From positions 1-62,675 of the forward strand of contig CAISWQ010000118.1 of the NCBI GenBank assembly GCA_903889245.1: a stretch of 62,675 bases of DNA, given 5' to 3'. Positions within the stretch are counted from its first letter, which is position 1, and the number at the start of each line of letters is the position of its first letter. The notes below the pieces were generated by a model. The model was not told the origin of the DNA. It ran no database searches and was given only the letters and a program-made list of their open reading frames with translations. Source of the DNA: an uncultured Lentisphaerota bacterium. Lineage in GTDB: Bacteria > Verrucomicrobiota > Kiritimatiellia > CAIQIC01. This document shows, piece by piece, positions 44,761-62,675 of this stretch. Both the position numbers and the translations under genes were made by a program.

Positions 44761-44925
44761 GTGGAGTGATGGAGTGGTGGAGGAATGGAGTGCTGCCCCA
44801 CGCTCGCGCTCAAAGAATCTCCACCTCCAGCACACCTGTGGGCTTGCGCCCACCCGCCCGCCTGGCGTTGTTCCATGGCTTTCCCAACACTCCAATACTC
44901 CATCACTCCAACACTCCAGCTTGCC
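44761..44925. repeat. Long foldback element of GGAGTA-like words
   Basis: Left arm of GGAGTGATGGAGTGGTGGAG words (44763-44795), right arm CACTCCAATACTCCATCACT and more (44886-44920), separated by about 90 bases that include a smaller hairpin (GTGGGC/GCCCAC, near 44840-44855). It fills the ppx-ppk1 gap and ends just before the ppk1 start. Same family as 11126-11207. Confidence 0.8.
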
Positions 44926-44929
44926 TCCC

Positions 44930-47053
44930 ATGAGCAAAAAATCATCCAACTATTTCAATCGCGAGTTGAGCTGGCTGGCGTTCAACCAACGCGTGCTCGA
45001 CGAGGCCGCCAATGCGGAGCGCCCGCTGCTGACGCGCCTGAAGTTCATCGCCATCACCGGCTCGAACCTTGATGAGTTCATGATGGTGCGCGTCGGCGGC
45101 CTGCAAGGGCAGCCGGCCAACGCCGAGCCCGATCCCGCCGGGCTGACGCCGGCCGAGCAGCTCGCGCGTATCAGCGAGGTCGCGCACGCGCTCGTCGCCA
45201 CGCAATACGAGCTTCTGCTCAAGGACCTGGAGCCGGGGCTGGCCGAGGCCGGCATCCGGCGCCGGACCTGCGCGGAGCTTTCGCCCGAGCAGATGCTTTA
45301 CATCGAGCGGCTCTTCGATCACGAAATCTATCCGGTGGTCACGCCGATGGCGCTGGAGCCGGATACGGATTTCCCGCTGCTGCCGGGCCTGACGGTCAAC
45401 CTGCTCGTGCGGCTCGCGCCCGACAAAAAAGCCCGGACCGGCGAGCGGTTCGCGGTGGTCGCGTTGCCGCGTTCCGTGCCCCGCTTCTTCACCGTGCCCG
45501 ACACCGGACGCGGCTATCACTATCTGCTGCTGGAGGACATCGTCGCGCAGTTTCTGCCAAAGTTGTTCGCCGGCGAAACGATCCTGGACAGCGCGGCGCT
45601 GCGCCTGACGCGCAATGCCGACCTGACGCTGCGCGAGGACCTCGCCGGCGACCTGCTTGAGGACATGAAGGAAATCCTGACCGAGCGGCGGCAGAGCGAC
45701 TGCATCCGGCTGGAGGTCAGCGCAAACGCGAGCGCCAAGCTGCTCACCTATCTCAAGGGCGCGCTGGACGTGGCCGACCGCGATGTCTATGCCGTGCCCG
45801 GCCCGCTGGGTCTCGCCGCGTTCTTCCGCATCGCCTCGACGCCGAATTTTCCGACGTTACAGGAGGAGGAGTGGCCGCCACAACCCCCGCCCGCGCTGCT
45901 GCCCGGCGAAGCCCTCTTTGACGCCATCGCGCGGCAGGACATCCTGCTGTTCCATCCTTACGAATGTTTCGATCCGGTTGTCCGGTTGGTGACCGAGGCC
46001 GCCGACGATCCGAACGTGCTCGCGATCAAGCAGATTCTCTACCGCGCGAGCGAGAACAGCCAGATCGTCGCCGCGCTCGCGCGCGCGGCGGAGCACGACA
46101 AGCACGTGACCGTGCTCGTGGAACTCAAGGCGCGCTTCGACGAGGCGCGCAACATCGGCTGGGCCCAGAGCCTCGAGCGCGCCGGTGCGCAGGTGATCTA
46201 CGGGCTGCGCGGGCTGAAGGTCCATGCCAAGGCCTGCCTCGTCGTGCGCCGCGAGGCGACGGGCCTGCGCCGCTACGTCCACTTCGGTACCGGCAACTAC
46301 AACGAGAAGACCGCGCGCCTCTATTCCGATGTGAGCCTGCTGACGTGCAACGAGGATTTCGGCGCCGATGCCTCCGCGTTGTTCAACACGATCACCGGCT
46401 ATGCGCAGCCAACGCCCTACCGCAAACTCGAGGCTGCGCCGTTGACGCTGCGTGACCGGCTGTTCGAACTGATTCAGAACGAGACCGAGCGCAGCCGGCA
46501 GGGCCAGAAGTCACGGATCATCGTGAAGCTCAACTCGCTGGTGGACGTGGCGATGATAGATGCGCTTTATGAAGCGTCGCAGGCCGGCGTGCAGGTGCAA
46601 CTCAACATCCGCGGCATCTGCTGCCTGCGGCCCGGCGTGCCCGGCTTGAGCGAGAACATCTCGGTCGTCAGCATCATTGACCGCTATCTGGAACACGCAC
46701 GCATCCTGTTCTTCGAGAACGGCGGCGAGCCGCTGGTCTTCATCTCCAGCGCCGACTGGATGCCGCGCAACCTTGACCGGCGCGTCGAACTGCTGACACC
46801 GGTGGAGGAACCGGCGGCCATCGCGCGGCTGGTGCACATCCTGGAGACGTGCCTCGCCGATACGGTGCAAGGGCGCCGTCTGCAAGCCGATGGTACATGG
46901 GAACGCAACGCACCGGCCGCCAAACGCAAGGCAGTGCATGCGCAGGAACTTTTCTATAAGCAGGCCCGCGACGCCGCCAGGGCGACCAGCGCTCGCCAGC
47001 AGGAAGTGGTCTTTGAGCCGGTACGCCCGGCCAAATCCGACGCCCAGCCATGA
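44930..47053 (+). CDS. ppk1: Polyphosphate kinase 1
   Basis: 707 residues, normal PPK1 length. N domain YFNRELSWLAFNQRVLDEA and NLDEFMMVRVGGL; the head domain; the two catalytic C domains with KQILYRAS, GLKVHAKACLVVRRE (phospho-acceptor His region), HFGTGNYNEKTARLYSDVSL and the second-His region EHARILFFENGG. It polymerises ATP gamma-phosphate into polyphosphate. The ATG at 44930 directly follows the foldback element. The stop overlaps the CHAD gene start by four bases. Confidence 0.97.
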   Translation: MSKKSSNYFNRELSWLAFNQRVLDEAANAERPLLTRLKFIAITGSNLDEFMMVRVGGLQGQPANAEPDPAGLTPAEQLARISEVAHALVATQYELLLKDLEPGLAEAGIRRRTCAELSPEQMLYIERLFDHEIYPVVTPMALEPDTDFPLLPGLTVNLLVRLAPDKKARTGERFAVVALPRSVPRFFTVPDTGRGYHYLLLEDIVAQFLPKLFAGETILDSAALRLTRNADLTLREDLAGDLLEDMKEILTERRQSDCIRLEVSANASAKLLTYLKGALDVADRDVYAVPGPLGLAAFFRIASTPNFPTLQEEEWPPQPPPALLPGEALFDAIARQDILLFHPYECFDPVVRLVTEAADDPNVLAIKQILYRASENSQIVAALARAAEHDKHVTVLVELKARFDEARNIGWAQSLERAGAQVIYGLRGLKVHAKACLVVRREATGLRRYVHFGTGNYNEKTARLYSDVSLLTCNEDFGADASALFNTITGYAQPTPYRKLEAAPLTLRDRLFELIQNETERSRQGQKSRIIVKLNSLVDVAMIDALYEASQAGVQVQLNIRGICCLRPGVPGLSENISVVSIIDRYLEHARILFFENGGEPLVFISSADWMPRNLDRRVELLTPVEEPAAIARLVHILETCLADTVQGRRLQADGTWERNAPAAKRKAVHAQELFYKQARDAARATSARQQEVVFEPVRPAKSDAQP

Positions 47054-47880
47054 AGGCGCGGTTCCAGTTGGCCAACCCCGCCGCCCGTTGCCGCGCCGAA
47101 CTGCAACGGCAGTTTGCGCTGATCCAAGGCTTGGAAAAAGCCACCGCCACCGGCAAGGTCGAGGCCCTGCATGATCTGCGCGTCGCGTTGCGCCGTCTGC
47201 GCGTCTTGTTACGCGCCTTGGCCGGCTTGTTGGAGCATACCGGGGCCGAAGAGATCGAGCGCCGCTGGCAAAGTTTCGCCGACGACTTGAGCCCGTTGCG
47301 CGATGCCGACGTCTGGCGCGGCCTGCTGCGCGAGTTACCGGGTGTGACACCCGCGTTCCGCCATCGTGTCCACACGCGCCTGCGACGGGAGCGCGGCCGG
47401 CCGGCAGCGGTCTTACGGTTGCCAGCGTGGTCGCGTCTGAAGCGCGCGACAAAGGCGCTGCTGGCCAGGCAACTGCCTGCCGCGCTTATCAAGGCGGGGG
47501 AAAAACAAATCACGAGTGAACTGCAACGCGCTTGGAAACAAGCCAGCGCACGCGCCGCCAAACTCGCGCGCAACCGCCAGCTCGCCAAGGTCGAGCCGGC
47601 GCACAAGCTACGCATCGCCTGCCGCCGCGTCCGTTACCTGGCGGAGTTCCTGGCGCTTGCTGTCGAGGGCAAGAAGAACCGCCAGGCGTGGCAGCTTCTA
47701 GCCGGGGATTATCGCGCCTTGCAGAACGCACTCGGCCGGACGCACGATGCCGATGTGCTGCTGGAGTTTTTGCATGAGGCGCGTCTGCGTCCACCCGCCG
47801 CGTTGGTCCGCGAGCTGCGCCACCGCCGCGTCAACGGCGTGCGGCAGTTCAAGAAGCTATGGCGGGGGCTGGGGACTTAG
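47050..47880 (+). CDS. CHAD domain protein (polyphosphate binding)
   Basis: 276 residues, almost entirely helical and very rich in Arg and Ala. The CHAD pattern of conserved histidines and basic residues is present: EALHDLRVALRRLRVLLRAL near residues 39-58, SPLRDADVWRGLL, and AHKLRIACRRVRYLAEFLAL with LGRTHDADVLLEFL. CHAD proteins bind polyphosphate granules. ATGA overlap with ppk1 shows cotranslation. A partial copy of the intergenic palindrome (centre 47129) lies within the gene and encodes IQGLEK in an N-terminal helix. Confidence 0.93.
   Translation: MKARFQLANPAARCRAELQRQFALIQGLEKATATGKVEALHDLRVALRRLRVLLRALAGLLEHTGAEEIERRWQSFADDLSPLRDADVWRGLLRELPGVTPAFRHRVHTRLRRERGRPAAVLRLPAWSRLKRATKALLARQLPAALIKAGEKQITSELQRAWKQASARAAKLARNRQLAKVEPAHKLRIACRRVRYLAEFLALAVEGKKNRQAWQLLAGDYRALQNALGRTHDADVLLEFLHEARLRPPAALVRELRHRRVNGVRQFKKLWRGLGT
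47121..47140. repeat. Single palindrome unit inside the CHAD gene
   Basis: CCAAGGCTTGGAAAAAG with centre at 47129. The right half is complete and the left T-tract is degenerate (GCTGAT). Read in frame as IQGLEK. Confidence 0.55.
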
Positions 47881-51683: not shown

Positions 51684-53927
51684 GTGTACCTCTCGTGCCC
51701 ACTTTTCAGGCTCACGATGCCGACGGAAATCATCTATGAACATGCGGCGCCGATCAGCGCGATTCTCGCGTCCATCGGCATCATCCTCGCGCTGGGCGTC
51801 CTTTTTTTCTGGAAGTTCCTCCCCGGCGAAATGGCCGCCTTCTATCTCTGGCCGATCCGCGCCTTCTTCTTCCTCCTGCTCGGCTGGTGCCTGCTGATGC
51901 CGACGCAGAAGAAGGCGCTGACGGAAGTCATCCGCTCGCGCTTCCTGATCGCCTTGGACACCTCAGGCAGCATGGGCTTGAGCCCGAACGCCAGCGTGCC
52001 GACGCGCTGGAAGACGGCGCGCGAAACGCTGGCGCAACCGTGGGTCACCGAGGTCGAGAAGCAGTGCGACATCGAGGTCTATCCGTTCGCCACCGAGCTC
52101 GGCCAGCCGGAGACCGTGGCGGCGGCGCTGGGGGTGTCAGCGCCAACCGGCACGTCGTCGCTCGTGCGCGAGGCGCTGCGCGGGCTGGCGGATCGCTACC
52201 GCGGCCAACCGGTCGGCGGGCTGCTGCTGCTTTCCGACGGGCTCGACACGCGTGAGGCGCGGTCGGAGTGGGCGGCGGCGACGTGGCCGTGTCCGATTTA
52301 TACGGTGCGGCTGGAGCCGGCGGGCGTGTGGAAGGCGGAGCCGGACGTGCGGGTGGATTTGATTGATACGCCGCGGCGCGTGGTCGTGGGGTGGGATTCG
52401 GAGCTGAAGGCGGTGATTGATGGCCAGGCCGCCGGGCAGCCGGTGCGGGTCCAGCTCTATGAGAACGGCGGGCTGCTCGAGGAGGTGCCGACGCAACTGC
52501 CGGACGAGGGCGGCCGACGCGAGGTGAAATTCACGCTCAAGCATCCCCTGATCGGCATCTTCAACTACGAGGTGCGCGTCCCCCACCTCAAGGGCGAGAG
52601 CCACACCAACGACAACACCCAGAAGATCACCGTGCAGGTCAACGACGCGAAGAACCGCCTGCTCTTCCTGGAGGACGTGCCGCGCAACGAGGCGAAATTC
52701 CTCAACCGCGTGCTGGCGGACAACCAGAACGTCTCGTCGCTCTCGTTCAACCGCATCGGCAAGCGGTGGATCACCTTCGGCCGCGAGCAGGCAAACACGA
52801 CCGACTGGACGCAACTGCCGCTCTCGACCTACAAGATCATCATCCTCGGCGACCTTGAGGAACACATGCTGCCGGTCGCGCAATATGAGGCGCTGGTGCA
52901 ATACGTCGAGGCCGGCGGCAGCCTGGTGCTGATGGGCGGCGAGCGCGCGTGGGGCACGAAGGGTTTCGACGCCAGCCCGCTGAAGAAGATCATGCCGATC
53001 AGCCGCGCGGGCCACCGGCCGATCATCGAGGGCAAGTTCCGCGTCACGATCACACCCGACGGCCTCGTGCATCCGGCCTTCCAGCGGAAGGAGGAGGGCG
53101 AGTTCATCATGCCGCCGGTGCTCTCGGTCTATCCCGGCAGCAAGCCGACCGCGGGCGCGCAGGTGCTGGTGACAGCGGCGACGCCGGAGGGCGTGCTGCC
53201 GCTGGTGATCCAGCAGCGCTACGGACAGGGCCGCGTGGTCGTCGTGCTCTCCGACTCGCTCTGGCGCTGGCAGCTTGACCCGAATCCGCTGATGAGCAAA
53301 TCCTACACGCGCTTCTGGAGCCAGCTCATCCAGGCGCTCGTGCCGGAGCAGCAGGAGCTGGATCGTTTCTCGATCGAGCTCTATGCCAACACCGACCATC
53401 CCTATCTCGGCGACGCGCTCCAGTTCAGCGCGCGCCTGCTCGCGCGCGGCAACGAGACCGTGGGCGACCTGCCGATGACCTGCGAGATCACGACGCCGGC
53501 CGGCCGCAAACTGCCGTTCACGATGAAGGCGCAAAACATCACCACCAGCGCGGGCAAGCAACTGCCGGGCTATATGACCGAAATGCGCGCCGAGGAACCG
53601 GGACTGTACCAGGTGGTGGCGCGGACGGAGATCACCGGCACCAAGGTGGAGTCGGCGCCCTACCCCGTGTACGTCCGCCCCTACACGCCGGAGACGATGC
53701 CGAAGGCGGCGGACATCGTCGCGCTGCAGACACTGGCGCGCAGCAGCGGCGGCAAATTCTGCGAGCCCACCGAGCTGAACAACCTCCTCTCCAGCCTGAA
53801 GTTTGCGCAGCAGGAGGAGCAACGCGTGATCTACCAGACGCTCTGGAATAACTGGGTAATTCTCGCTGCGCTGGTGAGTTTGCTTGTGGTAGAGTGGGCC
53901 TTGCGACGCTGGCGGAACCTGGCTTGA
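51684..53927 (+). CDS. Membrane-anchored VWA and glutamine-amidotransferase-like protein
   Basis: 747 residues. Two N-terminal membrane segments (about 24-45 and 52-72). A von Willebrand A domain from about 85 has the metal-ion site LIALDTSGSMG, APTGTSSLV and LLLSDGLDT. A beta-rich middle follows, then a class I glutamine amidotransferase-like domain at about 390-560 (YKIIILGDLEEHM, GGSLVLMGGERAWG) without catalytic Cys. A C-terminal membrane helix is at about 720-740. Related proteins sit in Bat/MoxR-type envelope operons. The GTG at 51684 has a strong AGGGGGAG site; ATG at 51717 is the alternative. Confidence 0.85.
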   Translation: MYLSCPLFRLTMPTEIIYEHAAPISAILASIGIILALGVLFFWKFLPGEMAAFYLWPIRAFFFLLLGWCLLMPTQKKALTEVIRSRFLIALDTSGSMGLSPNASVPTRWKTARETLAQPWVTEVEKQCDIEVYPFATELGQPETVAAALGVSAPTGTSSLVREALRGLADRYRGQPVGGLLLLSDGLDTREARSEWAAATWPCPIYTVRLEPAGVWKAEPDVRVDLIDTPRRVVVGWDSELKAVIDGQAAGQPVRVQLYENGGLLEEVPTQLPDEGGRREVKFTLKHPLIGIFNYEVRVPHLKGESHTNDNTQKITVQVNDAKNRLLFLEDVPRNEAKFLNRVLADNQNVSSLSFNRIGKRWITFGREQANTTDWTQLPLSTYKIIILGDLEEHMLPVAQYEALVQYVEAGGSLVLMGGERAWGTKGFDASPLKKIMPISRAGHRPIIEGKFRVTITPDGLVHPAFQRKEEGEFIMPPVLSVYPGSKPTAGAQVLVTAATPEGVLPLVIQQRYGQGRVVVVLSDSLWRWQLDPNPLMSKSYTRFWSQLIQALVPEQQELDRFSIELYANTDHPYLGDALQFSARLLARGNETVGDLPMTCEITTPAGRKLPFTMKAQNITTSAGKQLPGYMTEMRAEEPGLYQVVARTEITGTKVESAPYPVYVRPYTPETMPKAADIVALQTLARSSGGKFCEPTELNNLLSSLKFAQQEEQRVIYQTLWNNWVILAALVSLLVVEWALRRWRNLA

Positions 53928-53949
53928 TTTCAGCCGTGTGTGATTGCCT

Positions 53950-55422
53950 ATGCAAAGCATAAAACAGAACCAAGGGCTGGCGTTGGCCGGCAGTCTGCTG
54001 GCCGCGTTGCTGCTCGCGCCGGTCGCCGCGCAACAGCCGCCGCCGGCCGCCCCGGCCAAACCCGCGCCGGCCTACGCGCCGATGGGCAGCGGCTTCTTCA
54101 TCACCTCCAACGGCTACTTCGTCACCTGCTGCCGCGTCATCAAGAACGCGGAGGAACTCGCCATCCAGTACGCGGGCCGCGTCGTGAACGCGAAGGTGGC
54201 GGCCTTCGATGTCGAGTCCGATGTCGCCGTGCTCAAGGCCGAGGGCGGGCCGTTCGCCTGCCTGCCCATCGAGGACCCGCAGAATCTGGTCGTCGGCGAC
54301 GCGATCTACGCGGCGGGCTTCCCCACCCTCGCCAGCACCGGCGCCGCGCCGGGTTTTGCCGCCGGGACGCTCAAGGGACTGACCGGCCCCCGCGACGACC
54401 CGCGTTTCCTCGCCGTGAACGTGGCGGTACAGGGCGGACAGTATGGCGGGCCGCTGCTGGATAAGAACGGCAACGTGGTCGGCATCGTCGGCCTGGCCAA
54501 CGCCGCCACCCATTATCCGGTCAAGTCGCTCTTCATTGATCCGCTGTTCGACACCATGGCCGATGCCCGCAACGGTTTTCTACCGAAGCGCGAAGCGCAG
54601 CAGCCCAGCAAGCAGATCGAGCAACATGCCGTGGCCGCCGTCGGGCTGGTAATGCTGCCGATCAAGATCGTGCCGCGCCCGGTCGCGGTCGCCGGTTACT
54701 CGCCGGAACACTCCGCCGGTTTCAAGGAGCCGCCCTTTACCTATAAGTATTACGAGGGCGGAAACCTGCTCTTCAACGGCAGCTTCTCCAACGGGCTCGA
54801 TGGCTGGCGCTACAAGTATGACCTCGATGGCGAGAGCTGGTACACCAACAACCACAACCACGTCCAGGTGATCACCGACGAGACCACGCGCCAGACGATG
54901 CTCAAGCTTTCCGGCACGCACAAGGAACTGCAGGTGCCGGGCCAGGGCGTCAAGGTGGATGCCTTCCCGATCCCGGTCAAGTCCACCGACAAGTTCAAGC
55001 TCTCGTGCTGGGCCAAGACCACCGGCCCGGACTGCCGCATCCTCGCCTATGGCTACAAGTGGAAGCCCGGCATCAAGCCCCACCCCAAGCCCATCCTGCC
55101 GGAACTGCGCGAGTGCTATCACAGCGTGCAGCTCTATTTCTCCGCGGCCAAGCTCTGGCGCGAGGGGCCGGCGCAATATTCCACGCAGATCGGCGGCGGC
55201 GATTTCGGCGGCGTCAAGCGCGAGTGGAAACAGGCCACCGTGATCTTCCCCGACCGGAGCAAGTGGAAGGCGACGACCACCAGCGATATGACCGGCCGTA
55301 AAATTTCCATCGGCGAGGAAAAGTGGAACTCGGTCGAGTTCCTCTCCATCCACCTGGTGGCCATCGGGGGCAGCCCCGGCGACCTGTTGGTGCGGGATTT
55401 GCGGATTGAAAAAGTGCAGTGA
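53950..55422 (+). CDS. Exported trypsin-like pseudoprotease with C-terminal beta-sandwich domain
   Basis: 490 residues. Signal peptide (about 1-27), Pro-rich linker, then a HtrA-like serine protease fold (about 45-210): GSGFFITSNGYFVTC, ESDVAVLKAEGG, VGDAIYAAGFPT and GGQYGGPLLDKNGNVVGIVG. The catalytic His is Arg62 (FVTCCRVI), Asp91 is retained, and the Ser of the usual GNSGGPL is Tyr165. It therefore cannot be an active serine protease. The C-terminal half (about 255-490) starts NLLFNGSFSNGLDGW, like carbohydrate-binding or jelly-roll domains. A binding or scaffolding role in the envelope is likely. Confidence 0.85.
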   Translation: MQSIKQNQGLALAGSLLAALLLAPVAAQQPPPAAPAKPAPAYAPMGSGFFITSNGYFVTCCRVIKNAEELAIQYAGRVVNAKVAAFDVESDVAVLKAEGGPFACLPIEDPQNLVVGDAIYAAGFPTLASTGAAPGFAAGTLKGLTGPRDDPRFLAVNVAVQGGQYGGPLLDKNGNVVGIVGLANAATHYPVKSLFIDPLFDTMADARNGFLPKREAQQPSKQIEQHAVAAVGLVMLPIKIVPRPVAVAGYSPEHSAGFKEPPFTYKYYEGGNLLFNGSFSNGLDGWRYKYDLDGESWYTNNHNHVQVITDETTRQTMLKLSGTHKELQVPGQGVKVDAFPIPVKSTDKFKLSCWAKTTGPDCRILAYGYKWKPGIKPHPKPILPELRECYHSVQLYFSAAKLWREGPAQYSTQIGGGDFGGVKREWKQATVIFPDRSKWKATTTSDMTGRKISIGEEKWNSVEFLSIHLVAIGGSPGDLLVRDLRIEKVQ

Positions 55423-55455
55423 AGGCCGGACGTTTCGCGTGAGCGGAGAACGACT

Positions 55456-58400
55456 ATGACAGCGCAGGAAATCTATCGGCGGTTGGACGAGGTCGGTCAG
55501 AAGATCGGCCTGCGGCAGGCGGGCATCCGCCTGGCCATCGCGGGCGCCGCGGCGCTCGCGCTCCTCTGGCTGCTGGCGATGTCCGATATGCTGCTGCATT
55601 TCCAGCGCATCGGGCGCGTCATCGGCGGCGTGTTGCTGTTCGCGGCCCTCGGCGCGGCGGTCTGGCTGATCAGCAAGGCCCTGGGCAAGCGGCGGACGCG
55701 CGAGGCCGTCGCCGTCAGCGTCGAGCGCATGTTCCCGGAACTCGATAACCACCTGATCAACTACCTCCAGTTCAGCCGCTCCGGCGAGACGCGCGACGCG
55801 ATGATCTCCGCCTATCTCGCCAACGACATTCCCGCGTGGGGCGCGATTGACGGCAAAAAGTGGCAGGACCGCAAGCTCTGGCAGCGTTGCTGGGCGGCCT
55901 TCGGCGTCGTCGCGCTCATCGTCGCCGGCACGGCGGCCTGGTCCGGCCCCGGCTGGTTCAACGCCGCCGCGCGCATCCTCAATCCGTTCTCCGCGCGCCC
56001 GCCGGCGACCTTCGCCCGCATCATCGAGGTCAAGCCCGGCGATGGCTACGTGATGATCGGCGCGCCGCTGACGCTCAACCTCAAGACCGATGGCAAGTCG
56101 GGCCAGAAGGTCTTCCTCGACCTCTGGCCGCAGGACGACAAGAAGAGCTCCCTCCAACTCGGCAAGCTGCGCGGCGGCGAGCAGGAATTCGCCTACACCC
56201 TGCCCCGCGTCACCACCGGCCTCAAGTACCGCTTCCGCGCCGGCGACGCCGAGAGCGACAAGTTCGACATCAAGGCGGTGACGCCGCTCGCGTTCAAGAA
56301 GGTGGATGTGACCATCACGCCGCCGGCGTTCACCAAGCTGCCGGTGCGCCAGTTCGCCGCGCTCGCCGCGCCGGTGATCGTGCCGGAAGGCTCGCAGATG
56401 CGCGTCATCGTCGAGGCCAACCGCGCGATGAAGAGCGCCGTGCTGCTGAACGGCACCAACGAAATCAAGCTGGTCGAGAAGGTCGGCGAGGCGCTCGGCG
56501 GCACGCTGACCCTGACCGAGGGCGAAAGCCTGCGGCTGGTCGGCGATGATAGCTACGGCGGCCACGCCGAGTCGCTGCTCAACCTCGAAATCCTCCGCGA
56601 CAAGTCGCCGGACATCCGCGTCATCCAGCCCGCCGGCAAGGCGCTGCTCGGCCTCAACGGCACGCCGCGCATCGAGTTCGAGGTGAACGACGATTACGCG
56701 CTCGACCGCGTCACGCTCGAACGCATCGTCACCGAGGGCCGCGAGGCCAAGGCCGAGCCGGTCGCCGACTTCCCGCAGGAGGGCGGCAAGAAATTCGCCA
56801 AGAGCTGGGTGGCGGAGAATTTCACCTTCCCCGCCGGTGCGAACACGGTCACCTACCGCCTCGTCGCGACCGACCGCGTGGCGCCGGGCCTCAAGCAACA
56901 CACGGCGCGGTCCTCCGCCATCGTCTTCGAGCTGCTCTCCGCGGCCGCGGCGGCGACCCAGGGGGAGCAACGCTCCGTGAGCGAGGTCGCCCACAACCTG
57001 CACAAGCTGGTCGAGCTGCAGGCGGCCAACGTCGAGCGCACGACGCGGCTCGACGCGGAAAAGCAATACACCGACCCGAAGCTCTGGGGCGCCATCTTCG
57101 ATGTGCAGAGCGACATCCGCCGCCTCGCCGGCGCGCTGCTCTCCGATCCACGCAAGCCGCTCGGCGGGATGACGCTGATGATGCGCGACCTGCACGGCGG
57201 CCCGATGAACACGGCGGTCGTCACGCTGCAACGCTTCCAGCAAAGCCCGGCCGCCGGCAAGCCGGACCTCGCCCAGAAGGCGCTGGGCCTCGAACGCCAG
57301 ATTCTGCGGGTGCTCACCATGACCAGCGAGAGCATCAGCAAGGTGGAGCAGAACCGCGAGATCACCGGCCTGCTCGCGCTGATCGAGGCGCTCGTCATCG
57401 GCCAGCAGCAGACGCTCGACCTCACCGGCGTCAGCCTGCGCAAGTCCGAGAAGATTGCCCCGACGCTCGTGGACAAGCAGGACCGCCTCTCGCAGGACAC
57501 GACCGAGTTCTTCAAGCAGTGCCGCACCGAGTCCACCAAGCTCGCGCAGAACGACAAGGAGTTCTCCGGCATCCTCACCAAGATCGCCGACCTCGGCGAG
57601 AAGGATGACAAGGTCGCCGCCATCATGCTCAAGGCCGCGGAGCAGCTCGAACAGAACAAAGCCGCCGACGCGCAGCCGCTCCAGACTACCGCGCTCACCA
57701 AGCTCAAGGACTACCAGAAGGTCCTCAACGAGTGGCGCACCGCCGACGCCAAGGAGAAGATGGCCGAGCTGCAGCAGACCGTGGATAAGGTCGCCGCCGA
57801 ACTGAAGAAGATGGCCGAGCTGCAAAAAGAAATCGTCAAGAACATCCGCCAGACGCTCCAGCAACCCGACAAGTCCGATAAGAAGGTGGACGAGCTGCTC
57901 CAGGACGTGATGGACGTCAAGGCCAATATGGCGGAGGCCGCGCTCCAGATCGCCAAGGACCTCCAGATCTTCCCCGAACTGCCCGTCAGCAACGAGCTCG
58001 TCTCCGACGTCAACCAGATCTACGAGGAAATCCAGCAGGTCGCCGGCAGCGAGTCCAACCCGACGACCGAGCTGGGCCTGCAAAAAGAGGACTTCGTACT
58101 CGGCCTGCTCGAAGCCGCCGGCAAGCGCGCCGACGATCTCGAAATGTGGCTGATGAGTCAGCCCGACAACACGAAGCGCGACACCGAGGCGTTCGACAAG
58201 CAGGAACTGCCGCAGATTCCGCTGATTACCCTGCCGAGCGAATTCAACGATATCATCGGCGACCTGCTCGACCAGGAGAAGAAGGAAGAGGAGAAGGCCG
58301 ACGACTCCGCGACCAACCAGGGCAGCGCGCAGAACAACCTCAACGGCTGGGGCATCGCCGAGGGCGAATACGTCAACTATGCCGCGCAGGGCAAGTCCGG

Positions 58401-59040
58401 CAACGAGCGCCCCGACCACAAGGAGCAGGACGGCAAATCGCTCGTCGGCCGCCAGGGCATGTCCAACGGCGAGACCGCCGCCGGCTCCGGCAAGATCAAC
58501 GAGGGCGATGAGAACATCGAGAAGCGCATGACCCAGGACTCGATGCAGAGCGGCCAGGTCCAGGAGGAAGGCCACGCGGAGGCCAAGGCCACCGGCGGCG
58601 GCAAGATGGGCGGCTACAGCGACGAGCTCGGCATGGCCGGCACCGGCCCGCGCCGCGACGCCGCCGTCAACCAGGGCGGCGACGCCGGCTGGCAGGCGAT
58701 GCTGCGCCGCAACGCCGACGCGCTCTTCGCCAAGGCCTCCTTGAGCCACCTGCGCACCGGCTCGCTCGACGAGGCCGCCCGCTACATGCGCGAGGCCGAG
58801 GTCGCCATCCAGAAGGGCCTGCCCATCCGCGAAGTCCGCGAGTTCCAGCGCAAGGCCGTCGCCGCGCTCAAGCGCACGCAGGCCGAGTTGCAGGCCGGCA
58901 ACGCCACCCAGCTTCACACCGGCGGCAGCCAGCAGAACACCGGCGACCAGATGGCCGCGGCCGCCGACGATTCGCCGCCCGCCTACCGCGATCTGGTGTC
59001 CGAATACTTCAAGTCCTTGAGCGAGGCCCCGCAACCCTGA
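55456..59040 (+). CDS. Large DUF4175-like membrane protein with coiled coils
   Basis: 1194 residues. Two membrane segments near the N-terminus (about 24-43 and 55-75) and a third at about 145-165. A large Ig-like or beta-rich region follows (about 180-480), then long helical and coiled-coil stretches (about 500-960: KMAELQQTVDKVAAELKKMA, and so on), and a Gly/Gln/Asn-rich low-complexity region (about 960-1080). Members of this kind occur in PVC VWA operons and are thought to sit in the inner membrane. The ATG at 55456 has a GGAGAACGACT site. Confidence 0.82.
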   Translation: MTAQEIYRRLDEVGQKIGLRQAGIRLAIAGAAALALLWLLAMSDMLLHFQRIGRVIGGVLLFAALGAAVWLISKALGKRRTREAVAVSVERMFPELDNHLINYLQFSRSGETRDAMISAYLANDIPAWGAIDGKKWQDRKLWQRCWAAFGVVALIVAGTAAWSGPGWFNAAARILNPFSARPPATFARIIEVKPGDGYVMIGAPLTLNLKTDGKSGQKVFLDLWPQDDKKSSLQLGKLRGGEQEFAYTLPRVTTGLKYRFRAGDAESDKFDIKAVTPLAFKKVDVTITPPAFTKLPVRQFAALAAPVIVPEGSQMRVIVEANRAMKSAVLLNGTNEIKLVEKVGEALGGTLTLTEGESLRLVGDDSYGGHAESLLNLEILRDKSPDIRVIQPAGKALLGLNGTPRIEFEVNDDYALDRVTLERIVTEGREAKAEPVADFPQEGGKKFAKSWVAENFTFPAGANTVTYRLVATDRVAPGLKQHTARSSAIVFELLSAAAAATQGEQRSVSEVAHNLHKLVELQAANVERTTRLDAEKQYTDPKLWGAIFDVQSDIRRLAGALLSDPRKPLGGMTLMMRDLHGGPMNTAVVTLQRFQQSPAAGKPDLAQKALGLERQILRVLTMTSESISKVEQNREITGLLALIEALVIGQQQTLDLTGVSLRKSEKIAPTLVDKQDRLSQDTTEFFKQCRTESTKLAQNDKEFSGILTKIADLGEKDDKVAAIMLKAAEQLEQNKAADAQPLQTTALTKLKDYQKVLNEWRTADAKEKMAELQQTVDKVAAELKKMAELQKEIVKNIRQTLQQPDKSDKKVDELLQDVMDVKANMAEAALQIAKDLQIFPELPVSNELVSDVNQIYEEIQQVAGSESNPTTELGLQKEDFVLGLLEAAGKRADDLEMWLMSQPDNTKRDTEAFDKQELPQIPLITLPSEFNDIIGDLLDQEKKEEEKADDSATNQGSAQNNLNGWGIAEGEYVNYAAQGKSGNERPDHKEQDGKSLVGRQGMSNGETAAGSGKINEGDENIEKRMTQDSMQSGQVQEEGHAEAKATGGGKMGGYSDELGMAGTGPRRDAAVNQGGDAGWQAMLRRNADALFAKASLSHLRTGSLDEAARYMREAEVAIQKGLPIREVREFQRKAVAALKRTQAELQAGNATQLHTGGSQQNTGDQMAAAADDSPPAYRDLVSEYFKSLSEAPQP

Positions 59041-59066
59041 TGCTCACCGTCCCCCACCCTTCCGGC

Positions 59067-59208
59067 TTCCAAGCCTTGGAAAAATTGCCGCGCTGTTTTC
59101 CAGGCCTCGGAAATATTCGTGCGCTGTTTTCCAAGCCTTGGAAAACCGCGCGCCGAAAGCTTCCAATGCTTGGAAAAAACACCGGTTCCCTTTTCCAATC
59201 TCTGGAAG
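59067..59208. repeat. Phased palindrome array 11 (5 units)
   Basis: Centres at 59074, 59105, 59136, 59168 and 59200 (intervals 31, 31, 32, 32). Unit 3 is perfect, the outer ones less so. This is inside the envelope operon, between the DUF4175-like and PA14-like genes. Confidence 0.92.
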
Positions 59209-59212
59209 CAGT

Positions 59213-59320
59213 GTCGAGGGTCGAGGGGCGGGTGACGGGTGGCGCTTATTCGATGTTCGATGTTCGCCGCTCGCCTCTCTCCGGTTTCAAGTTTCAGGTT
59301 TCAAGTTTCAAGTTTCTCTT
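59213..59320. repeat. Cluster of short tandem words extending into a coding region
   Basis: GTCGAGG twice (59213-59226), GATGTTC twice (59252-59265), then TTTCAAG-type words five times (59283-59317). The last set lies inside the next gene and encodes FKFQVSSFKF in its signal peptide. Confidence 0.75.
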
Positions 59321-61571
59321 CGCCGCCGCTGCGGCGGCGCTGGCGTTGCTGTTGCCGGCGACGCAGGCGGCGGGCGACTGGGCGGTCGAGGGCGCGACGA
59401 TCCGCTTCGAGGTGCAGATGGCGGGCTCGCCGAACGAGCCGGAGGCGGGCGTCATCGCGATCATCCCCGATGGCGGGCTGCTGCCGCGCTCCGCGCCGGA
59501 CCCGACCGTGGTGGACCGGAGCGGCAAGACGCTGAAGAGCGAGGTGCTCTGGTATAACCCGCGCGACGGTATCGCGGTGGTCTTCGAGCAGCCGTCGCAG
59601 GGCGTCGCCACGATCTACTTCAAACCTTCGAGCACCTTCTCGCGGGTGGGCAACAAGCCGACCTCGCAGTTCAAGCCGGGCCTGCTGCTCTACGGCCGGA
59701 CCGGCCGCGCGACGATGGCGACCGCGCTGTCGCTGGCGACGGAAGCCATCGGCGGCTCGGCACGGTTCGGGTTCGTGCCCTACATCGGGCAGCGCGAAAA
59801 CCAGCTCGGCCCGAACGAGGATTTCAGTTGCTATTACACCGGCTGGCTGCGGATGCCGCAGAAAACCAAGGTCTATTTCTGCACGATCTCCAGCGATGGT
59901 TCGCAGGCGTTCGTGGATGGCAAGAGCGTCGCCAACTGGCCGGGCATCCACAAGCGCACCGAGGGCGGCAGCGGCAAGTTCGGCTCGTGGGTCGAGCTCG
60001 CCGCCGGCCCGCACCGCATGGAATATTTCTATTTCAAAAAAGAAAACGAGGGCGCCGAGGCCAACTTCTGCTGGAAGCTGCCGACCGACAAGCTGCCGCG
60101 CACGATCAGCGCGAAGGACTATTTCCACTCCGGCCAGGCGCGGCCGTTCAAGTGCGAGCTGGCCGATGGGTCGCAGCCCGCCGCGCTCCGCTGGACCTGT
60201 TCGAGCTATCTCTGGCTGCGCACGTGGCCGTGGTGCAATTTCTCCCTGCGCGCGCTCAATACCGAGAACGTGCCGACCAACACGGTCTTCACGTGGGAGC
60301 CGGAGCCGGGCTTCAAGGTCAACGGCGCCGAACTCAACTGGCTGTTCGCCGGCCAAGGCGAGCACCACGTGGGCCTGACCGTGACGCAGGGTAAGAACGT
60401 CAGCAAGAGCGCGCGCACGGTCTATTTTGCGCGGGCGCCGGCGCGCGCCACGATCAACTCGCCCACCGACCGCGTCGAGTACCGCAAGGCGCTGCTCGCG
60501 CGCTGCCAGGCGGTGCCCGCCGGCCAGCGGCCCTGCGCCACGTGGGATGACGAGCTCTGGACGATCTTCCACGACACCATCGAGCCGCTCGCCGGCCTGG
60601 CGGTGATGACCGAGGTCTTCGAGCGTTCGTGGAGCGACGTGCAGAAGCGGCCGCCCGCGGAACGCTACCGCATGGAAGACATCTATTTCGAGTTGATGCG
60701 CTACAGCGACAAGAAGCTCGCCGAGGGCTGGCTGCCGAAGTTCGAGAGCGCCGACGGCACCAACCGCGAGCGCCGGCTGATGTGGCAGATGACCAAGGTG
60801 GATTTCACGCTCAACGAGTTGAACCAGCCCGACGAGGCGCGCAAGCTCGCCGCCGCGCTCAAGGGCCAGGCCACGCTCTCCAATGACATCGCCCGCGTGA
60901 TGATCCGGCAGGGCGACGTCGAGCGCTTCGCCGGCCAGGCCGAGGAAGCCGCCAAGTTCTACAGCGGCGCGCAGGACATCCTCGGCAAGAAGGCGGGCAC
61001 GGTGGCCACGACCGGCCTGATCGGCAACCCGGCGCAGAAGGGTAAACCGACGAAGGAAGATAAAGGCTTCGCGTGGCGGCAGCGCGGCGGCGGCAAGGGC
61101 GAGCGCATGTTCGCCATCGCGCCCTCGGTGGATGACTGGCGCAAGCAGGCGGTGCGCGAGGCCGCCTATTACGAGACCCTGCACTCACAGCTCAAGGCGC
61201 ACGACATCGAGGAGGCGCGCAAGACACTCGCGCAATGGGAGCTGGAGTTCCCGTTGAGCAAGCTCGCCGGCGATTATCCCATTGGCGAGGGCGAGTTCTA
61301 CACCTCGATCGGCGACTATACCCGCGCGCTGCGCGTGCTTTCCGCCTACCGCAAGAACGTGGAGATTTCCAACTATTTGCCACAGGCGATGGCCCTTGAA
61401 AGCCGCTGCCTGCACGCGCTCCGGCGCATGGAGGAATTCAAGACGCTCGCTGCCGAACTCATCAAGCGTTTCCCCGGCCACCCGGCGGCGGCGGAGATGC
61501 AGACCGAACTGGACATCGCGCAAGGCCGCCGCTCGGCCACGCCGGGGCTGCGCCTGGAGGATTACCAATGA
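59253..61571 (+). CDS. Exported PA14-like and helical-repeat protein
   Basis: 772 residues from the ATG at 59253. The signal peptide has an odd N-region encoded by TTTCAAG repeats (FKFQVSSFKFLF) and then AAAAAALALLLPATQA. A beta-rich domain at about 30-170 is followed by a PA14-like domain (about 185-290: CYYTGWLRMPQKTKVYFCTI, SDGSQAFVDGKSV, GSWVELAAGPHRMEYFYFKK). An immunoglobulin/PKD-like part and a helical TPR-type C-terminal third (about 600-750) follow. Probably an envelope protein that binds glycans or other proteins. Homology offers no support for the longer open frame that runs from 59040 through array 11. ATGA overlap with the next gene. Confidence 0.8.
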   Translation: MFDVRRSPLSGFKFQVSSFKFLFAAAAAALALLLPATQAAGDWAVEGATIRFEVQMAGSPNEPEAGVIAIIPDGGLLPRSAPDPTVVDRSGKTLKSEVLWYNPRDGIAVVFEQPSQGVATIYFKPSSTFSRVGNKPTSQFKPGLLLYGRTGRATMATALSLATEAIGGSARFGFVPYIGQRENQLGPNEDFSCYYTGWLRMPQKTKVYFCTISSDGSQAFVDGKSVANWPGIHKRTEGGSGKFGSWVELAAGPHRMEYFYFKKENEGAEANFCWKLPTDKLPRTISAKDYFHSGQARPFKCELADGSQPAALRWTCSSYLWLRTWPWCNFSLRALNTENVPTNTVFTWEPEPGFKVNGAELNWLFAGQGEHHVGLTVTQGKNVSKSARTVYFARAPARATINSPTDRVEYRKALLARCQAVPAGQRPCATWDDELWTIFHDTIEPLAGLAVMTEVFERSWSDVQKRPPAERYRMEDIYFELMRYSDKKLAEGWLPKFESADGTNRERRLMWQMTKVDFTLNELNQPDEARKLAAALKGQATLSNDIARVMIRQGDVERFAGQAEEAAKFYSGAQDILGKKAGTVATTGLIGNPAQKGKPTKEDKGFAWRQRGGGKGERMFAIAPSVDDWRKQAVREAAYYETLHSQLKAHDIEEARKTLAQWELEFPLSKLAGDYPIGEGEFYTSIGDYTRALRVLSAYRKNVEISNYLPQAMALESRCLHALRRMEEFKTLAAELIKRFPGHPAAAEMQTELDIAQGRRSATPGLRLEDYQ

Positions 61572-62311
61572 GCACACGTTGGCTGGTGCTGGCCGCCCTC
61601 GTCACCGCGCTGGGCCTCGCGCAGGCCGCGGAAAAAAAGGAAGGGCACACCGGCACCAAGCAATCCTCCCGGCTCTACACCGCGCCCGACGCCAGCGACT
61701 CCGGCGGACTGCGCGGCCGCATCGCCTTCCCGCCCGACCCGCTGGTCGCCGCCTTCGCCGTTCCCAACAGTGAGCTCGCGCGCTGCTACATGGCGACCAT
61801 CTCCAAGGACGGCCGCGCCTTCGAGTTCAACAACCTGCCGACCGCCAAGTATGACCTGCTGCTCGTGTTCCCGGACATGTACTACGAGGGCTTCACGCTC
61901 AACCGCAGCGCCGGCAACCTGAAGACCAACGAGTGGAAAAGCATCCTCGCCATCCTCAACAAGTCGGAGCCGTTCTACGAGATCAAGCGCATCGAGCGCC
62001 TCGATGGCATCGCCGGCGAGGCCGGCTGGGCGCAGGCGGTCTTCCAGCAACTGCGCGCGCGGCCCGTCACCCTGCAAAGCGCCGAGGTGCGGTCCGACAT
62101 CCAGATCCGCACCCTCAAGCTCGCGCGCTTCGAGAACGTCGGCCCCGCCTGGCAACTGCTGGTCACGCGCGAACTGCTCCGGCAGGAAATCGCCGGCAAG
62201 GAACGCAAGGGCCTCCTGCCCCACTACTATGCGCCCGACAAACTCGGCAGCCTGCGCGTCGTGGATAGCGTGAAGGACCTGGGCGAACTGCACTTACCCG
62301 AACCCAAGTAA
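61568..62311 (+). CDS. Exported protein of the envelope operon, unknown function
   Basis: 247 residues with a signal peptide (about 1-20, LVLAALVTALGLAQA). The body is probably beta-rich (PPDPLVAAFAVPNSELARCY, RAFEFNNLPTAKYDLLLVFP, like a prealbumin/carboxypeptidase-regulatory type fold in the first part). It starts by ATGA overlap with the PA14-like gene and is followed 22 bases later by the FHA gene, so it belongs to the same operon. Confidence 0.78.
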   Translation: MSTRWLVLAALVTALGLAQAAEKKEGHTGTKQSSRLYTAPDASDSGGLRGRIAFPPDPLVAAFAVPNSELARCYMATISKDGRAFEFNNLPTAKYDLLLVFPDMYYEGFTLNRSAGNLKTNEWKSILAILNKSEPFYEIKRIERLDGIAGEAGWAQAVFQQLRARPVTLQSAEVRSDIQIRTLKLARFENVGPAWQLLVTRELLRQEIAGKERKGLLPHYYAPDKLGSLRVVDSVKDLGELHLPEPK

Positions 62312-62333
62312 CGAACATAAAGGAGCAACCATC

Positions 62334-62675
62334 ATGGCAAAATTGATCTTCCAATCCGGGCCGCTGGCCGGCCAGGACGTGGACCTGCCCGCCGGGGACT
62401 TTCTCATCGGCCGCAAGGACGAATGCGACCTGCAAATCCCCAATCCCGTCGTCTCCTCCAAGCACGCGCTGATCGCGCCGCAGGGCGGCAACTGGATCAT
62501 CACCGATCTCGATAGCGCGAACGGCACGCTGGTCAACGGCCTGCGGATTCAAGGCACGGTGCCGCTCAAGCATGGCGACACGGTTGAAATCGGCGGCATC
62601 CGCATGGGCGCGATCCTGCTCGAACGCGGCGCGCCCGCGCCGGCCCCGGCGGCGCCCCCGCCCCCGTTGGCAGCC
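62334..62675 (+). CDS. FHA domain protein, partial
   Basis: 114 residues before the window ends. FHA domain at about 1-95: DFLIGRKDECDLQIPNPVVS, SSKHALIAPQG (the Ser-x-x-His phosphopeptide-binding motif) and DLDSANGTLVNGLRI, followed by a Pro/Ala linker. FHA domains bind phosphothreonine. In this operon it could bring Ser/Thr kinase signalling to the envelope complex. Ribosome site AGGAGCAACC before the ATG at 62334. The rest of the protein lies outside the window. Confidence 0.93.
   Translation, partial: MAKLIFQSGPLAGQDVDLPAGDFLIGRKDECDLQIPNPVVSSKHALIAPQGGNWIITDLDSANGTLVNGLRIQGTVPLKHGDTVEIGGIRMGAILLERGAPAPAPAAPPPPLAA

Follow-up and report, generated by a model that had tools for sequence, protein, structure and literature searches.

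The C118 locus

The window, that is the whole stretch of DNA analysed here, is the entire contig C118 of genome G000 (62675 bases), and its right edge is the contig end. From position 51684 to that edge there are six ORFs in the same direction, named A, B, C, D, E and FHA (Table 1); in this genome the gene 5' of A is on the opposite strand. A was called from GTG 51684 and B from TTG 53944, and better starts for them are ATG 51717 and ATG 53950. With the better starts the spacing is 22 nt between A and B (from ATG 53950), 33 nt between B and C, and 22 nt between E and FHA, while D and E overlap by 4 nt (ATGA), which bears out the first-pass annotation of a co-directional set of six with gaps of 22-33 bases or ATGA overlap. 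A scan for promoters and terminators gave counts equal to those in shuffles. Elsewhere in the window, the genes for polyphosphate kinase 1 and, after it, a CHAD-domain protein overlap by 4 nt (44774-47880).

Gene D requires a larger correction. As called from 59040 it overlaps C by 1 nt and is over-extended, its residues 1-71 being translated across the repeat array at the C/D junction. Orthologue similarity starts near residue 112 of that call and a signal-peptide-like segment follows ATG 59253, which is probably the true start. Many other ORFs of the window and the genome begin with translated fragments resembling the repeat (FSKPWK, FQGLEK, FPSLGK), and fragments of this kind also start the D frames of same-genus relatives.

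Table 1. Features of the MoxR/VWA system in G000 and of its surroundings (window coordinates unless a contig is named)
Feature	Position	Strand	Description	Basis
A	51717..53927	+	Inner-membrane protein, MIDAS motif DTSGSM, PF07090 domain	ORF call, Pfam, TM scan
B	53950..55422	+	Exported; pseudoprotease and CBM4/16-like parts	Pfam, alignments, model, Foldseek
C	55456..59040	+	1194 aa, membrane-anchored, marker gene	Alignment, 77 loci, conservation profile, TM scan
Repeat array	59067..59191	.	Four ~31-nt copies, palindrome-bearing (TTCCAAGCCTTGGAA), C/D junction	
D	59253..61571	+	Exported; weak PA14, PKD-like and TPR/YbgF-like parts	Start inferred, was 59040
E	61568..62311	+	Small exported beta-rich protein, no known family	
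FHA-MoxR, N-terminal half	62334..62675	+	FHA domain and start of Pro/Ala linker; cut by contig end	
FHA-MoxR, MoxR half	Contig C84, L010:14655-15752	reverse	Open frame 2 bases from C84 end	
U-DUF58-BatA trio	Contig C28, L068:3611-7566		Orthologous to in-operon copies	
Ser/Thr kinase gene	L068:7878-10385, after the C28 trio		Kinase domain	PF00069, E=3e-41

A probable FHA-MoxR fusion divided between two contigs

The last ORF has an FHA domain (Pfam, E=8e-22) and is incomplete, its frame running open off the end of C118 from within a Pro/Ala linker (APAPAPAAPPPPLAA). One of the four strong MoxR genes of the genome has a frame that begins at the end of contig C84 in a Pro/Ala linker of the same composition (APAPAPAPAAPPPPAPAPARPAPKRPQ). 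This C84 half matches PF07726 (AAA_3) at 212 bits, contains the motifs GMPGMAKT and ADEINR, and has intact Walker motifs. Two members of the same genus, G003 and G001, encode FHA and MoxR together in one ORF (478 and 469 aa) that comes straight after A-B-C-D-E, and the C84 MoxR is 93-94% identical to these fused MoxR proteins, vs 47-52% to the other MoxR proteins of its own genome. In a third member of the genus, G002, the contig ends inside the FHA gene at the same place in the linker as C118, as expected if a GC-rich stretch breaks assemblies.

By these comparisons, the FHA protein of the window is the front half of an FHA-MoxR AAA+ fusion whose ATPase half is at the end of C84. The C118 and C84 ends share no bases, so we infer the join, from relatives and from the matching open frames rather than from overlapping sequence or reads. 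That lack of common bases would also suit a separate short FHA protein and an unrelated MoxR half on C84. Yet both frames open into a Pro/Ala linker of like composition, the relatives have a single ORF, and of the four strong matches in the genome none but the C84 gene corresponds closely to the fused MoxR, all of which makes two separate proteins extremely improbable. The first-pass advice to seek a MoxR gene past the right edge proved correct. The gene just beyond MoxR on C84 (L010:12472-14478) encodes receiver domains and GGDEF, and is not beside the cluster in relatives.

In nearly all orthologues the fusion keeps both the FHA pocket residues Arg, Ser and Asn (GR...S..HA...NG[T/S]) and the MoxR Walker A motif GxPGxAKT. 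The linker between them is long, flexible-looking, rich in Pro and Ala, and poorly conserved, and the alignment of orthologues has no conserved Thr within it.

A conserved nine-gene unit

We used C as the marker for finding loci. Among genomes of the same class, 13 relatives carry C, most with the same neighbours. Scanning of genome contigs with the C alignment gave 77 loci, labelled Lentisphaerae, Kiritimatiellae, Verrucomicrobia, Spartobacteria, PVC group, unnamed bacteria and a few other verrucomicrobial groups, and gene order at these was read with profiles built from relatives. Full-length C occurs in about 38 of the 289 genomes of the phylum surveyed, so the system is widespread but patchy. 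The family order is U-DUF58-BatA-A-B-C-D-E-FHA/MoxR, with exactly these nine in that order at 12 loci; many of the remaining loci are cut by contig ends. Median gaps between neighbouring cluster genes range from -4 to 26 nt.

FHA and MoxR are in one frame at all 40 of the 77 loci that have a MoxR match, and MoxR without FHA was found at none. Most of the fused ORFs measure 439-555 aa; three are cut by contig ends and one is over-called to 740 aa. Some Spartobacteria-type loci end in C, and all ten such genomes tested have an FHA + MoxR frame elsewhere, with a stop codon inside the FHA/MoxR match in one (G318).

In most relatives U, DUF58 and the BatA-type VWA gene stand directly before A, with DUF58 and BatA adjacent within the unit in the class relatives, but not so in the genus of G000. 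A detached U-DUF58-BatA trio was found in all four genus members (G000, G001, G002 and G003); the G000 trio, on C28, shares 65% (DUF58) and 43% (BatA) identity with the copies that G047 has within its operon, and it matches PF01882 (DUF58, 157 bits) and PF07584 (BatA N-terminal domain, 54 bits). As judged from gene order across the loci, the ancestral cluster is one of nine genes: U, DUF58, BatA-type VWA, A, B, C, D, E and FHA-MoxR. These comparisons show the six genes of the window, the C84 MoxR half and the C28 trio to be parts of one conserved nine-gene MoxR/VWA system. The first-pass annotation had described a six-gene operon ending in an FHA protein; this has to be redrawn, as the last gene runs on into FHA-MoxR and the relocated U-DUF58-BatA genes also belong. 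Conservation of the neighbourhood, on which that annotation had staked its own proposal, was found both across relatives and in the wider loci.

We also note two variant arrangements: (i) Directly after FHA-MoxR, G053 has another D homologue, 28% identical (L049:2494-4656, reverse strand). (ii) At the Spartobacteria-type loci L146, L153, L159, L161, L166 and L167, the opposite strand carries a D homologue upstream of U, and FHA-MoxR is located in another part of the genome.

Proteins of the unit

Topology throughout was taken from hydropathy and charge. A has two N-terminal TM segments and one at the C-terminus. The first-pass reading of A as a VWA/amidotransferase-like protein stands for its amidotransferase-like part, which matches PF07090 just over the cut-off (E=1.9e-6, 28.1 bits vs 27); no VWA match was found in A by Pfam at E<=1, and the VWA reading is carried by the MIDAS motif DTSGSM, whose DxSxS is kept in 42 of 47 orthologues. 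MIDAS is likewise kept in BatA (36 of 37 orthologues) and DUF58 (32 of 34), that is, in three separate VWA proteins of the system. BatA has a TM layout like that of A, and DUF58, with its own MIDAS, has no TM segment in the hydropathy scan. In BatA, positively charged residues follow TM1 and also mark the C-terminus, so that under the positive-inside rule its VWA segment is probably periplasmic; the VWA segment of A may, by analogy, be so too. U has no recognised fold.

B begins with a trypsin-like domain (PF13365, E=2e-26). The three genus members that have the domain all carry Arg in place of the catalytic His and Tyr in place of the catalytic Ser, in agreement with the first-pass call of a pseudoprotease; the His-Asp-Ser triad of HtrA/trypsin-like proteases is not intact in B. 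The pseudoprotease is fused ahead of B only in G000, G002 and G003, and B in the wider family is an exported CBM4/16-like beta-sandwich of roughly 200 residues, so that by its distribution the pseudoprotease is a genus-level add-on to a conserved CBM4/16-like protein. The B model has pLDDT of about 90 over most of residues 271-490, and Foldseek relates its beta-sandwich to CBM4-2/CBM16 (prob 1.00, TMt 0.65-0.73); the pseudoprotease half modelled poorly, and the structural claim is limited to the beta-sandwich half.

C has three N-terminal TM segments and a long helical-looking region. It is best conserved in a Gly-rich hydrophilic stretch at about residues 950-1050 (profile peaks 951-1050). 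We tried C as a DUF4175 protein, and PF13779 gave no match at E<=1. In D, the PA14 likeness seen in the first pass persists only in weak form, with a Pfam match below cut-off (E=0.008), alongside weak PKD and a YbgF/TPR-type tail. E has no Pfam or NCBIfam match; its AF2 model is beta-rich (mean pLDDT 88.6) and the fold has no PDB match at E<=0.001. A DUF3823 assignment for E (3e-3 with TM about 0.2) was not accepted. Sequence searches of the PDB gave no useful matches for A, B or E.

Relation to known MoxR systems

The cmdABCD operon of Rhizobium leguminosarum (RL3499-RL3502, with a MoxR of the MRP subfamily) has MoxR, DUF58, a BatA-type VWA protein and an amidotransferase-like membrane protein in common with the present system. 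There the amidotransferase-like membrane protein carries PF07090, the BatA-type protein carries a DUF4159 domain, and MoxR is the first gene and is unfused to FHA, whereas here MoxR is last and fused to FHA. We know of no B, C, D, E or U in the cmdABCD operon. Two BatA-type proteins of the present system, searched for DUF4159, gave no match at E<=0.1. The Bat (Bacteroides aerotolerance) operon similarly shares MoxR, DUF58, BatA-family VWA proteins and exported partners, but is without the amidotransferase-like A, the large C and FHA.

G000 has four MoxR systems: FHA-MoxR, C119, C54 and a Bat-like cluster of its own on C28 (L009). The MoxR proteins of the FHA-MoxR system and the Bat-like cluster are 47% identical. 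The paralogous clusters on C119 (L008/L069) and C54 (L011) have the order MoxR-DUF58-BatA/VWA-A-like, as here, but with MoxR first and without FHA; orthologues of B, D and E were not detected in them, and the C119 cluster also has a distant C-like N-terminal region.

The bifidobacterial PFNA cluster comprises pkb2, fn3, aaa-atp, duf58, tgm, prpC, a hypothetical gene and fha, and its MoxR is a kinase substrate (PMC8430577). Like the present system it groups a MoxR-family AAA+ with DUF58, FHA and a large exported protein; unlike it, FHA and MoxR are separate genes, and there are a kinase and a transglutaminase, both absent from the present cluster. By analogy, the FHA-MoxR fusion reads like two separate PFNA genes joined. 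The MoxR-vWA ternary conflict systems (PMC7159879) share the pairing of MoxR and VWA, and their effector or conflict-type variable domains are not in the present system.

By the gene features tested, the system belongs to the MoxR-DUF58-BatA (MRP/Bat) kind; the first-pass annotation had found no system that it could name, and a name can now be given, for a kind with envelope phenotypes elsewhere. In gene content and order it differs from that kind by the fusion of FHA to MoxR, the last position of MoxR and the B/C/D/E/U set. Elsewhere MoxR proteins act, with VWA cofactors, as chaperones for protein complexes, and mutants of the MRP operon of R. leguminosarum have defects of envelope integrity and of morphology (PMC3893208, PMC5700661).

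Kinases

The Ser/Thr kinase gene after the C28 trio is the first in a series of kinase genes on C28. It is beside the trio in G000 only, and absent there in G001-G003. We rejected it as a tenth member because the adjacency is lost in those three relatives and the gene is one of many on C28. About eleven Ser/Thr kinase genes form a run at G000:C28:74076-115897, and G000 has 30 kinase matches vs 2-12 in the 13 relatives searched. No co-directional gene with a kinase-profile match was found in the 77 loci, which held two stray minus-strand matches. A Ser/Thr kinase gene, which the first-pass annotation had also advised looking for past the right edge, is not linked to the cluster in any conserved way, in the 77 loci or in the three same-genus relatives. 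Each of 14 system-bearing genomes searched encodes Ser/Thr kinases, so that phosphorylation could occur in trans, and the intact FHA pocket makes kinase regulation plausible. A survey of conserved Thr residues gave as leads BatA T35, in a presumed cytosolic loop, and DUF58 T279.

A proposed mechanism and its alternatives

We propose, with a probability of roughly 60%, that FHA-MoxR is a MoxR machine guided by its FHA domains to a threonine-phosphorylated partner, and that it works on an envelope complex via DUF58, BatA, A and C. The AAA+ ring would lie in the cytoplasm and be docked by the FHA domains on the phosphorylated partner, which would confine ATP-driven remodelling to the places and times at which the target bears the mark of a Ser/Thr kinase. 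The direct client would most likely be the cytosolic DUF58 protein, a VWA protein with MIDAS, and from DUF58 the action would be handed on to BatA, A and C in the membrane, such that the effect crosses the inner membrane; C is predicted to reach about 1000 residues into the periplasm. The exported B, D and E, with glycan-binding-type and TPR-type folds, may tie the complex to cell-wall or other envelope polymers. In this way an envelope complex would be assembled or repaired.

Recruitment need not be the role of the FHA domain, which could instead act in self-assembly or autoinhibition. Chief among the rivals is a switch in cis, in which MoxR or the linker would be phosphorylated by a Ser/Thr kinase and FHA would bind in cis or between subunits, setting the ATPase on or off without recruitment (compare OdhI-type switches). 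In bifidobacteria the PFNA kinase Pkb2 phosphorylates the MoxR ATPase itself, with FHA a separate gene of the cluster (PMC8430577), and the long flexible-looking linker that joins the FHA and MoxR parts here would suit such a switch; against it, conservation of that linker is poor and the alignment has no Thr kept within it. We regard a cis switch as less likely than recruitment. Far less probable is a conflict or defence module of the MoxR-vWA ternary type in place of an envelope machine: such systems are known in Verrucomicrobia and planctomycetes (PMC7159879), and there is a weak match to bpMoxR (PF20030), but this reaches 42 bits vs 212 bits for AAA_3, effector domains were not seen, exported and membrane proteins make up most of the system, and gene order is stable over wide divergence.

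Novelty and meaning

No description of an FHA-MoxR fusion or of this cluster was found in the open-access literature, and subscription journals or database domain architectures may have one; both the fusion and its B/C/D/E partners appear to be new. From its gene content, the system looks like a phosphorylation-controlled variant of the MoxR/VWA envelope-assembly machines. More tentatively, and at somewhat under even odds, it may represent an undescribed class of MoxR of Verrucomicrobiota-type lineages, with a phosphothreonine reader on each AAA+ subunit, in which kinase signalling would target the ATPase to a trans-envelope complex of VWA and glycan-binding proteins.

It has long been asked by what means MoxR ATPases recognise their clients and what purpose the widespread MoxR-DUF58-BatA operons serve. 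With B, C, D, E and U the nine-gene set offers new candidate partners without annotation. That MoxR occurs naturally fused to a phosphothreonine reader may hint at the kind of signal in control, and the FHA ligand, once found, would give either the client or the switch.
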